A stretch of DNA of 64,000 bases. Source: Polyangium fumosum (lineage in GTDB: Bacteria > Myxococcota_A > Polyangia > Polyangiales > Polyangiaceae). Position numbers and translations under genes: made by a program. Positions 2,685 to 20,125 of this stretch are shown here, one piece after another. Under the pieces are notes generated by a model. The model was not told where the DNA came from and did not search any database. It saw only the letters and a list, made by a program, of their open reading frames with translations. Location of the stretch: positions 1-64,000 of the forward strand of contig NZ_SSMQ01000039.1 of assembly GCF_005144585.1 (NCBI RefSeq), given 5' to 3'. Each line of letters begins with the position of its first letter. Position 1 is the stretch's first letter.

Positions 2685-2726
2685 TCGAGCGCCAAAAAGC
2701 GTGGCCACCGGGCGCCGAACGCCCTG

Positions 2727-3035
2727 CCCCCCCGCAACATCACGATCGCTCCCCGCGGATGCCCTCCTGCAGCGCCGCAACCCGCCCCCCGTCCGCGCGG
2801 CCGCCGACCTCCGGCGCCGCGAACCCGCCACGCCCAGGCGCATCCCCCACCCTGCGGCGCCGCAAGCAGCCCTCCGCGCTCACCCACCGCCGATCGACAG
2901 CACCGCAGCTCGCAACCCCCACGCCGGAGGCGCCGACCTGCAGCGCCGCAAGTCCCGCTCCACGAGCCCGTTTCCCATCCTGCAGCGCCGCAGGTCCCCA
3001 AGCGCGCTCTGCTCCCTCCATCCTGCGGTGCTGCA
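2727..3035. repeat. Eight-unit array with 42-43 bp period
   Basis: A core related to CAGCGCCGCA, usually preceded by CCTG, begins at 2727 (degenerate), 2770, 2812, 2855, 2898, 2941, 2983 and 3026. Successive spacings are 43, 42, 43, 43, 43, 42 and 43. The roughly 27 nt between cores are not conserved. The period is not a multiple of three, so it does not encode repeated peptide. It is close to four helical turns, so all cores face nearly the same side of the DNA. Related cores also occur in the centres of copies B (about 3212) and C (about 19952). Confidence 0.75.
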
Positions 3036-3384
3036 CGCGTCGCGCCGGGGCGCTGCCCCGGACCCCGCGGGGGCTGTCCGCCCCTCGACCCGGACCAGGC
3101 ACGGCCTGGACCGAGGTGGGAGAACTGCGCGGAGCGCAGTTCTCCCCACGGGCCGGTGGCAAGACCATGGAGGTGGGTTCCAAGCCGGCGACGGGCACGC
3201 TGCCGGCTGAACCTGCGGCGCTGTGGCCTTGGTGGGCAGGGTCGCCTGTGGTCTTGCCACTGGCTGTTCGAGGAACTGCGCGGAGCGCAGTTCCTCGACC
3301 CCGGGTCCAGCGCCTCGCTGGTCCGGGTCCAGGGGTGGACAACCCCTGGTGGGGCCTGGGGCAACGCCCCAGCTCCGCGCCCCA
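3036..3384. repeat. Structured repeat copy B (complete, bipartite)
   Basis: Two homologous halves in inverted orientation flank a centre. Left half (to 3146): hairpins CCGGGGC-GCT-GCCCCGG, CCAGGC-ACG-GCCTGG (3095-3109), and a 13 bp stem at 3118-3146 with core GAACTGCGC-GGA-GCGCAGTTC. Right half: 14 bp stem at 3268-3298 with the same core, CCAGCG-CCT-CGCTGG, CCAGGGGT-GGACA-ACCCCTGG and CTGGGGC-AAC-GCCCCAG. The centre is closed by 12 bp arms GTGGCAAGACCA (3156-3167) and its complement (3249-3260). The right half, read backwards, is related in sequence to the left half. It sits between converging stop codons. Confidence 0.85.
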
Positions 3385-3402: not shown

Positions 3403-5925
3403 TCAAGCTGGCGGCTTGCAGAACACGCCGACGATGGTCCCGAGGTTGTTTCCGGGTTTGCATTCGGCGTATGCGCCGTCGTCGTTTGGGATGACGGTCA
3501 CGTCTACCTTCTGTGATTCGATCGTGGGGGGCATGCTCCAGTTGCAGGAGACGAGCCGGCATTCGCCGGGCTCGAGGACTTCGGTCGTCTTTGCCTCGCA
3601 GACCTTCATTTGCCCGACGTAGAAGCCGACCGAGAGGCCTGCGCCGACGGGATCGGCGCCGCGGTTGCAGATGGGGGCTCCGATCTCTGCGCCCTGACCG
3701 CTGCATGCGAATTGTGCGCTTGCGCCTGCGGTGGGATCGCCTGTGGCCGCGCCGTTTGCGTTTCCCGGGACGTTCTGGCGGAAGTTGTTCAGCTTGGGGT
3801 CGTCCCAGTTGTTCGTCCAGGCGCTCGTCTTCGGGAGGGTCCCGTCTTCGTTGACGTGCGTCACGGCATAGGGGTGCTGGTTCCAGATCGTCCGCGAGCG
3901 GACCCATTTGTCGTTCGCGTCCGAGTACACGCGGATCCCGGAGACGCCGTGTGGGTGGCCGGCGCGGCACGTATTGCCCGTGCCGGGCGTGTCGGCGGGC
4001 GGGGGCGCGCAAAGGAAGCCCTCCTCGATGCAGGCGGCGTCGTCCTGGGCCGCGCAGCATTGCTTTGTCTCGGAGCACCGGCAGAACCCGGCGTCGCAGA
4101 CGCCGGAGAGGCAATCGACTGCTTTCTCGCAGCGGACGCCCGGGAACTGCGGGTCGACGCCGTTCGCGTCGAGCGTCTGGCATGGGATGCCCGTCCCGTC
4201 GGGCGAGCAGGCTTTGTTCGAGGGCGTGACGAGATCTGCGCGGAAGTTGCCGTCGACGTCGGCGATGATGGGGTTTTCGTACCAGGTGCACGACGAGCGG
4301 TACTGGCTGAAGAGGACGTCGCCCGTGTCCCCGTCGTACACGCGGACGAAACATTCGTCGCCGTAGACGACCTCGCTCGACCCGTCGGCCTCGAAATCGA
4401 AGACGCTCGAGCCTGTGACGTTCGACGAGAGGTCCTGCGTGGAGCGCGACCAGAGGATGTACTGGCCCGCGGGGCACGTGCCGCCCGTGTAGTCGCAGCG
4501 ACCGAGGCTGCATTGCCCGCCCGGCCGCGGGGACGCGCCGCAATCGAGATCGTAGATCGTGTAAAACGCCTGCCCGGCGACCGCCACCTCGGGGAGCCCA
4601 TCGCCGTCGAAATCGCTGACCGTGGGGGGACCGCCGCCGCCATTCCCGGGGACGGCCACGGGCGGCTGCGCGAGCGTGCCGTCGATCGCGTAGATCATCA
4701 CCAGGTTCGACCGCACGACCACGATCTCGGGATTTTTCGCGGGAATGCCCTCGCCGCCGTAGGCGCCGAAGTCGGCGATGGCCACGTGCCCCGGCGCCGA
4801 GGACGAGAGGCCTGGGAAGTAGGTCTCCGGGACCCACGCGCCGCCGGCCCATTCCCAGATGAAATGGCCGTTCGTGAACTCGATGTTCGGGTCCTGATCG
4901 AGGTTCGCCACCACGGAGAAGAGGCCCGCGGAGTAACTCGAATAGAGGGGCGGGGCGCCCGACGCGAGCGAGCCGTCGGCGCGGAGGACGGCGCCCTCGC
5001 GCAGGATCTCGGGCTTGCCGTCGTCGTCGATGTCGTGGATGGCGGGCCCGGCCCAGCCCACGGGACAGCGATGCTGGTTGAAATCGCAGGGGCCCCCCGG
5101 GATGCCGGCCTGATAAGGAGCCTTCCAGAACAATCCCCAGGCGCCGGACTTTTTCGTGAACGCGAGCGTCGAGCCGTCCGCCCCGTACGCGACGATCTCG
5201 GCCACGCCGTCGCCGTCGAGATCACCCGACGCGAGCGAGGACGACGAGACGACCCAATCCGCCACGCCGTCGCCGTCCACGTCGGTGCCGCCGAGGTTCG
5301 CCTCGAGCGAACAGTCCTTGCCGCTGAGCACGCGGATCACACCTTGATCCTCGGTGTAATTCGCGATCACGGTCGGCGTGAACGCCGCGACGATGCTCGG
5401 CGGGCCCGCGGCCGCGGGCTTGTGGAAGTTCGTCACGATCGGCGTGCCCTGCACGTCGACGTGGCCCGGGAACGGATCGCCGTCGGGCGCCGTGCTGAAC
5501 TCGCATTTGACGCGCGGCGAAAACTGGCCGGCGGCGATGACGTTGATGCACGTCGGATCCTTCGGCGGCGACGCGCTCTCCCACGGCACGCATTGCTTGA
5601 GCATGGGCTCGCAATACGTGTCGTTCTTGCAATCCGCGTCGTTCGTGCAGCCGGTCACCGGCACGCAGACGCCGTGCGAGCAGACCTGCGTCGTCGACTC
5701 GCACGTCGGGTCACACGTCCCCGGAAACCCGCCGCCCTGCGCCGAGCCGACGGTGAACGTCCCGCCATCCCCGCCCTGCCCGCCCGAGCCCGGGCCCCCC
5801 GTCGCCCCCGAGCCGCCCCCGCCCGTATTCGAGCCGTCGCCGCACCCCTCCGCCAGCGCAGACAGGGCGAGCGCGAAAAGGCCCGCCGCGGCGAGCCAGC
5901 GACCTTGTACCGATCTCCTTCTCAT
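3403..5925 (-). CDS. FG-GAP/VCBS-repeat surface lipoprotein
   Basis: 840 aa from the ATG at 5925, chosen because GGAGGGAA lies just upstream; an in-frame ATG at 5946 lacks this. A basic N-terminus and hydrophobic stretch end in LAEGC (Cys28), a lipobox, followed by a Gly/Ser-rich tether. A Cys-rich stretch follows (CDPTCESTTQVC and later pairs). Then come at least six calcium-binding-like FG-GAP turns of the form DxDGDGxxE/D (DVDGDGVADW, DLDGDGVAEI, DIDDDGKPEI, DFDGDGLPEV), which build an integrin-like beta-propeller. A second Cys cluster with CSETKQCC follows, and the C-terminus looks like an extracellular Ig-like (CARDB-type) module. A cell-surface adhesion or binding role is inference. Confidence 0.85.
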   Translation of the reverse strand: MRRRSVQGRWLAAAGLFALALSALAEGCGDGSNTGGGGSGATGGPGSGGQGGDGGTFTVGSAQGGGFPGTCDPTCESTTQVCSHGVCVPVTGCTNDADCKNDTYCEPMLKQCVPWESASPPKDPTCINVIAAGQFSPRVKCEFSTAPDGDPFPGHVDVQGTPIVTNFHKPAAAGPPSIVAAFTPTVIANYTEDQGVIRVLSGKDCSLEANLGGTDVDGDGVADWVVSSSSLASGDLDGDGVAEIVAYGADGSTLAFTKKSGAWGLFWKAPYQAGIPGGPCDFNQHRCPVGWAGPAIHDIDDDGKPEILREGAVLRADGSLASGAPPLYSSYSAGLFSVVANLDQDPNIEFTNGHFIWEWAGGAWVPETYFPGLSSSAPGHVAIADFGAYGGEGIPAKNPEIVVVRSNLVMIYAIDGTLAQPPVAVPGNGGGGPPTVSDFDGDGLPEVAVAGQAFYTIYDLDCGASPRPGGQCSLGRCDYTGGTCPAGQYILWSRSTQDLSSNVTGSSVFDFEADGSSEVVYGDECFVRVYDGDTGDVLFSQYRSSCTWYENPIIADVDGNFRADLVTPSNKACSPDGTGIPCQTLDANGVDPQFPGVRCEKAVDCLSGVCDAGFCRCSETKQCCAAQDDAACIEEGFLCAPPPADTPGTGNTCRAGHPHGVSGIRVYSDANDKWVRSRTIWNQHPYAVTHVNEDGTLPKTSAWTNNWDDPKLNNFRQNVPGNANGAATGDPTAGASAQFACSGQGAEIGAPICNRGADPVGAGLSVGFYVGQMKVCEAKTTEVLEPGECRLVSCNWSMPPTIESQKVDVTVIPNDDGAYAECKPGNNLGTIVGVFCKPPA

Positions 5926-5976
5926 TCGTTCCCTCCTCGGGAGCATTCGTGGGAGGGAGAGAATACCGGAATCGGC

Positions 5977-19774: not shown

Positions 19775-20125
19775 GGCGTCGCGCCGGGGCGCTGCCCCGG
19801 GCCCCGCGGGGGCTGTCCGCCCCTCGACCCGGACCAGGCACGGCCTGGACCGAGGGTGGAAGAACTGCGCGATGCGCAGTTCTTCCAACGGGCCGGTGGC
19901 AAGACCATGGAGGTGGGTTCCAAGCTGGCGACGGGCACGTTGCCGGTAGAACCCGCAGCGCCGCGGTCTTGGCTGGAAGGGTCGTCGTCGGTCTTGACCC
20001 CGGCTGTTCGATGAACTGCGCTCCGCGCAGTTCATCGACCCCGGTCCAGGCCGTGCCTGGTCCGGGTCCAGGGGTGGACAACCCCTGGTGGGGCCTGGGG
20101 CAAAGCCCCAGCTCCGCGCCCCCGA
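19775..20125. repeat. Structured repeat copy C (complete, bipartite)
   Basis: About 350 bp, closely similar to copy B throughout. Left arm: CCGGGGC-GCT-GCCCCGG, CCAGGC-ACG-GCCTGG, then TGGAAGAACTGCGC-GAT-GCGCAGTTCTTCCA (19857-19887). The centre (19888-20007) keeps the aagaccatggaggtgggttc segment of copy B. Right arm: TCGATGAACTGCGC-TCC-GCGCAGTTCATCGA (20008-20038), CCAGGC-CGT-GCCTGG, CCAGGGGT-GGACA-ACCCCTGG, CTGGGGC-AAA-GCCCCAG. Stem bases that differ from copy B are matched by complementary changes. It lies between converging genes. Confidence 0.85.

Follow-up and report, generated by a model that had tools for sequence, protein, structure and literature searches.

How do eight copies of a short motif come to stand 42-43 bp apart in non-coding DNA, and what might such an array be for? 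The question is raised by positions 2724-3035 of the window, by which we mean the first 64,000 nucleotides of contig NZ_SSMQ01000039.1 of Polyangium fumosum. The array lies between an open reading frame (ORF) ending at 2684 and an opposite-strand ORF at 3403-5946. We favor, at a rough probability of 0.47, the reading that it is a gene-less dispersed copy from a family of DNA-site arrays for a cognate protein, laid out like sopC of the F plasmid but not a member of the ParABS systems. The array comprises the following features.

2724-3035, no strand assigned: phased array of eight motif copies in steps of 42-43 bp, belonging to a dispersed array family and lacking a gene
2724-2736, plus strand: motif copy 1 (weak)
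2767-2779, plus strand: motif copy 2 (exact)
2809-2821, plus strand: motif copy 3
2852-2864, plus strand: motif copy 4 (TGCGGCGCCGCA, a perfect palindrome)
2895-2907, plus strand: motif copy 5 (weak)
2938-2950, plus strand: motif copy 6 (exact)
2980-2992, plus strand: motif copy 7 (exact)
3023-3035, plus strand: motif copy 8

The 13-mer core, CTGCRGCGCCGCA, recurs in steps of 43, 42, 43, 43, 43, 42, and 43 bp. The eight copies at 42-43-bp spacing reported in a preliminary description of this DNA are borne out, with each 13-mer starting 3 bases before the start given there; copies 1 and 5 are weak, each with 3 mismatches to CTGCAGCGCCGCA. The regularity also survives the comparison with shuffled sequence that had been proposed for it. 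When sites with at least 10 of 13 matches to the motif were chained by 42- or 43-bp steps, the real region yielded a chain of 8, versus a longest chain of 3 in 2000 dinucleotide shuffles of the array region (reached in 1 shuffle) and of 2 in 60 shuffles of the whole window. Autocorrelation over 2717-3040, which makes no use of the motif, has its top lags at 128, 43, and 85, equal to three, one, and two steps. Three steps add up to 128 bp and single steps switch between 42 and 43 bp, which rules out a coding origin of the period, in agreement with the earlier claim that it is not codon-periodic. The filler between copies, described as unrelated, is so in part, as a weaker second box recurs within it. 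The stretch is C-rich (181 C and 98 G per 366 bases), and Rfam at gathering thresholds has no match anywhere in the window. Pairing between half-sites of neighboring units (CTCGGGC of unit 3 with GCCCGAG of unit 4) was no better than other combinations across 22 dispersed rows, a set that omits the partial or rearranged L105 and L096.

The array has relatives. Among 108 family genomes the exact two-motif pattern is confined to its own genome, a uniqueness that is misleading because the motif diverges. A search with the whole array as DNA, following the suggestion to look for other arrays of the same step, recovered relatives of ∼312 bp in five of six Polyangium genomes: at least 14 places in the complete chromosome of G085, at least 5 in the own genome (the window and one partial copy included), at least 3 in G086, and at least 1 each in G087 and G089, with none among the candidates of G088. 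Forty candidates were scored per genome, and the counts are lower bounds. Relatives align through the filler almost gap-free at 73-81% identity, and most retain the step pattern of the window array. Others differ by whole 42/43-bp units: L097 has an exact 43-bp duplication, L096 has alternating two-unit repeats, and L108 and L111 have one unit fewer. The array evolves by unit gain and loss, and because whole units come and go, the earlier statement that it is unlike a decayed tandem duplication was too strong.

Relatives occur in two contexts. In the first, gene-less copies adjoin a 345-bp repeat; the window copy belongs here and has the repeat on one side. In the second, found once each in G000, G085, G086, G087, and G089, 102-123 bp separate the end of the array match from the start codon side of a gene for a 225-residue protein, downstream of it. 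Interspecies homology spans array and gene, ∼1.1 kb, and most flanks differ, although G000 and G085 have 2.5 kb downstream of this cassette in common. Genome G088, which lacks the group-1 gene, also lacks the group-1 array. Directly left of the gene-linked array of the own genome, at 2519-4889 of L098, an ORF resembling an AAA-type ATPase is followed by an HNH-like ORF, which may make up a Septu-type defense pair.

Evidence for the favored reading comes from the period that accompanies this protein across lineages. Of 108 family genomes, 16 have a homologue, as do at least 16 of 377 phylum genomes (seven candidates scored per genome); a named collection has homologues at 28 loci, whose hosts are Polyangium, Sorangium, Minicystis rosea, a Sandaracinus metagenome-assembled genome (MAG), other myxobacterial and deltaproteobacterial MAGs, and one Candidatus Schekmanbacteria MAG. 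We scanned all lags from 26 to 69 beside the gene and, as controls, in 1400-bp blocks farther away. The best local period was 42 or 43 bp at 18 of 28 loci versus 5 of 92 control blocks, and 17 loci versus 1 control block scored at least 6 at these lags. Clustering at 60% identity placed 24 of the 28 proteins in 14 clusters, 9 of which show the period. A further scan, run without control blocks, covered 16 loci, of which six repeat earlier ones and the other ten represent nine places (L175 and L185 being one). Here lag 42 was best at L173 (score 8.9), L175/L185 (11.1), L188 (8.5), L174 (6.0), and L176 (5.1); at L177 the best lag was 43 (5.9). Some of these periods are weak.

The side on which the array lies also varies. 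It is upstream of the gene in Polyangium groups 1 and 2 and at one Minicystis locus, and downstream in most others; at L148, a terminator-like hairpin (4736-4765) separates gene from array, which weighs against a shared transcript there. Since arrays lie on either side of the gene and this hairpin intervenes, the array is generally not a leader. Ten arrays have mean steps of 41.5-43.0 bp, or 10.4-10.75 bp per turn over four turns, with step lists and unit starts set by hand and a few degenerate units placed by phase. The suggestion that the sites face one side of the DNA fits these values best. Sites in other lineages are unlike the window motif, and several are clear palindromes of 14-20 bp.

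L150, L154, and L158: palindrome TTCCAT-N5-ATGGAA
L152 and L153: palindrome GATCCAG-N5-CTGGATC
L151: palindrome CTTGCC-N4-GGCAAG
L118: palindrome CTGTGCCCTGTCACAG
L123-L125: palindrome GATCCAC-N6-GTGGATC, one to three in-phase copies each
L148: one full GTGACACGTGTCAC and in-phase half-sites

Palindromic sites also occur in L175 and in group 2, and palindromy at 41-44-bp steps is clear in L148, L150-L154, and L158. Within G086, three paralogues have three different sites. Downstream of the gene at L129, L133, L128, and L132, first units carry the half-site CGACCCTTCC and later units its reverse complement GGAAGGGTCG, as if the second half of the array had been inverted.

The protein itself matched no recognized family. 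Across 18 homologues, none of the families in Pfam or NCBIfam was matched at its cut-off, including ParB families and recognized transposase or recombinase families, and the best matches elsewhere were weak (PHROG, E 0.09; PDB by sequence, E 0.35). An AlphaFold model (mean pLDDT 91.8) predicts two helices of 59 residues each (31-89 and 139-197), separated by short helices. Foldseek searches of PDB and BFVD returned no match at E<=0.001; a likeness to the TorS sensor bundle (VIA-align Z 9.5, rmsd 5.8, 183 aligned) is within the generic range for helical bundles. No plasmid or phage matches to the protein were found. In a survey of ORFs of at least 110 residues around the 28 loci, the 25 most shared ORFs were either overlaps of the gene or products of synteny within Sorangium; no other neighbor among them was common across genera, and none of the 25 was a ParA ATPase gene. 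Assuming circular chromosomes, the gene is 0.44-0.64 Mb from dnaA in G007, G100, G101, and G102, 2.7-6.6 Mb away in G067, and 3.8-4.0 Mb away in G085; the latter two lead us to reject a chromosomal centromere on grounds of position. In three complete Sorangium genomes (L141-L144) the homologue lies ∼0.54-0.64 Mb from dnaA and has no visible 42/43 period beside it. Judged by protein family, the neighbors surveyed, and position relative to dnaA, the family is not a member of ParABS, a type of system that stabilizes its replicon.

We examined whether length is conserved beyond sequence. Thirteen gene-less copies, chosen without the partial or rearranged L105, L096, and L092, are all 311-312 bp long despite 18.9% divergence, and their 78 pairs include 4583 substitutions and 84 gap events. 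This is 0.018 gap events per substitution versus 0.109 in the 345-bp repeat (30 re-oriented copies, 435 pairs, 11.2% divergence), a sixfold difference, or versus 0.091 in the 143 repeat pairs with at least 12% divergence; pairs are not independent, and the contrast between array and repeat is not a clean one. From these alignments, the spacing of the array looks more constrained than its sequence, but indel evidence alone is no proof.

A protein-binding array, as had been proposed, fits the evidence best because steps are close to four helical turns, length is kept in gene-less copies, and a protein gene goes with the array far beyond the genus. The constant step near four turns, the dyad-symmetric sites, and the continued presence of the gene, on one side or the other, point to DNA sites for cooperative binding. 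The conserved element would be about eight short, often palindromic DNA sites ∼four helical turns (42-43 bp) apart, and its gene-linked form a ∼1.1-kb cassette of array plus one gene for a helical protein of ∼225 residues. We infer that the protein, alone or as part of an assembly, binds DNA at these sites as dimers on one face. Binding may be cooperative and build up a nucleoprotein complex with the layout of SopB on sopC, and each paralogue would recognize its own site sequence. Gene-less arrays, including the window copy, would be extra targets in trans that have spread with the 345-bp repeat. For the role of the complex, our preferred guess is positioning or chromosome architecture. The partition protein that had been named as an example is retained as an analogy of layout with sopC, and a role in partition is suggested on that basis only.

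Several results weigh against this interpretation. In the 28-locus scan, 42/43 was not the best lag at L140, L141-L144 (Sorangium), L145, L146, L156, L161, and L164 (L145 and L146 are close to contig ends and L164 is a fragment); in the further scan it was not best at L172 (66) or at L178 and L186 (44). When seven step classes were ranked by palindromy, the class of 41-44 bp came first in no more than 10 of the 28 loci and did not do so in the Polyangium group-1 loci; palindromy is weak in the group of the window array. Across five orthologous gene-linked arrays, motif and filler are alike in identity (0.72 vs. 0.73), and both are less conserved than third codon positions (0.81); motif and filler entropies are 0.54 and 0.62 bits in the 22 dispersed rows. 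The 100-bp leader before the gene is as poor in indels as the arrays (4 gaps per 185 substitutions), so a low indel rate is not unique to them. Lastly, the predicted helical-hairpin fold contains no recognized DNA-binding family.

The 345-bp repeat may bear on how gene-less arrays spread. Its features in and beside the array are the following.

About 3037-3383, plus strand: near-palindromic interspersed repeat of 345 bp that adjoins the array; related arrays at other places have it on one side or on both
3213-3225, plus strand: single related motif at the center of the repeat (4 mismatches)

The central motif agrees with the description of the array as abutting a repeat copy that holds one related motif. 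The repeat has a second copy in the window at 19776-20125, and contains two perfect GAACTGCGC-NNN-GCGCAGTTC hairpins and GC-rich end hairpins. The own genome, of 12.98 Mb, and G085 each have it in at least 40 places. In G085, the 40 copies that were scored lie at 2.3-9.3 Mb, most at 4.3-8.9 Mb, on the opposite side from dnaA (11.65 Mb); an array-specific clustering in that chromosome (5.5-9.2 Mb) was rejected because the repeat clusters likewise. The same locus in a sister species, which had been suggested for comparison, was found in G087 through the orthologue of the gene upstream of the window array; homology ends at the stop codon, and both array and 345-bp repeat are absent. In the own genome, a gene-less array at 5112-5600 of L097 is within the region of a CHAT-like gene, and ∼53 bp of the G087 counterpart (L103, 2224-2312) are present on both sides of it.

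The main rival is that the array is transcribed and works as RNA, with palindromes as stem-loops, filler as guide or linker, and the helical protein as an RNA-binding partner, as in TIGR systems. We consider this unlikely, yet the best placed of the alternatives. Most palindromes could fold with loops of 4-6 nt. PMC12045711 describes TIGR arrays as 5-15 units upstream or downstream of a protein gene, with repeats constant within a locus and variable between loci, and two TIGR clades as having "variable but consistently palindromic sequences." Conversely, no Nop family was detected in the 18 homologues by Pfam scans at E<=0.1, and fold comparisons, which cannot exclude Nop, listed no Nop fold and no convincing match. 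Mismatches between palindrome arms on the gene strand show no excess of G-T (15 G-T, 26 A-C, and 63 other, off-phase matches included), and pairing within units is no better than between units. Filler that is retained between dispersed copies, the lack of a phage match to the window array, and the hairpin that parts gene from array at L148 also argue against RNA.

A less probable explanation is that the array acts in cis within a mobile cassette, for instance as recombination or replication sites used when the cassette or the 345-bp repeat moves. Consistent with this, array and gene are in mostly different flanks in each species, the counterpart of the L097 region in L103 has no array at that point, and some gene-less arrays in G085 lie between two 345-bp repeats with identical junctions (11 bp at three places, 6 bp at two). 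However, the protein is not a recognized transposase or recombinase, and the period of 42/43 is also kept by lineages in which no 345-bp repeat was observed next to the array. Similarly improbable is a decaying, functionless minisatellite hitch-hiking with gene and repeat, which would account for the turnover of whole units, the similar divergence of motif and filler, the fresh near-identical repeats of L118 and L175, and the absence of a gene from the window copy, but not for a common period where homologues have arrays without evident sequence likeness, for constant length at 19% divergence, or for recurring palindromes.

Returning to DNA-site arrays for a cognate protein, we suggest that arrays beside a helical-protein gene in myxobacteria are an undescribed protein-and-DNA-array system; none of the titles and abstracts listed by literature searches describes this pairing. 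More tentatively, and with doubts that outweigh our confidence, this may be a new class of two-part element. In such a class, an unnamed all-helical family would read four-turn palindrome arrays in a manner unrelated to DNA binding by ParB, ribbon-helix-helix, or helix-turn-helix proteins; site and protein would co-diversify into separate pairs within one cell, and gene-less arrays would be seeded around the chromosome as extra targets of a centromere-like or architectural system. If true, myxobacteria have several parallel protein-plus-array loci that are unnamed in the libraries searched. It would further follow that a layout like that of sopC arose around an unrelated protein, and that conserved spacing can reveal a non-coding array whose sequence has not been kept. 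With arrays as ready DNA targets and proteins as ready reagents, recognition of four-turn palindromes by a helical hairpin is directly testable.

Among known systems, CRISPR arrays have near-identical repeats and spacers that are replaced between strains; the array is unlike them in that units are degenerate and filler is common to dispersed copies (73-81%). In type III toxin-antitoxin loci (ToxIN, CptIN, and TenpIN), a small protein gene is likewise accompanied by tandem repeats, of roughly 35-45 nt; these are RNA repeats, nearly identical to one another, and lie upstream of the gene for a ToxN-like nuclease. The protein described here, in contrast, is all-helical, the filler varies, and arrays also lie downstream. 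TIGR-Tas systems are alike in that their arrays are upstream or downstream of a single protein gene, unit sequences vary between loci, and palindromic elements are consistent in two clades (PMC12045711). TIGR arrays are processed into 36-nt guide RNAs. They differ in that here no Nop family was found, filler is retained rather than replaced between copies, and arrays are chromosomal and in myxobacteria. The closest layout is that of sopC (parS-F) of the F plasmid, with twelve 43-bp repeats that each have a 16-bp inverted repeat bound by a dimer of ParB-F (SopB), according to PMC6238139 and PMC9178275. The arrays described here likewise have about seven to eight sites at 42-43 bp beside a cognate gene, with the sopC-type step at 18 of 28 loci and inverted repeats at some, palindromic in several lineages. 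They differ from sopC in having a helical-hairpin protein with no ParB family match and no ParA neighbor, in being chromosomal with the array on either side of the gene and filler that varies between units, and in having sites that differ between paralogues within one genome.
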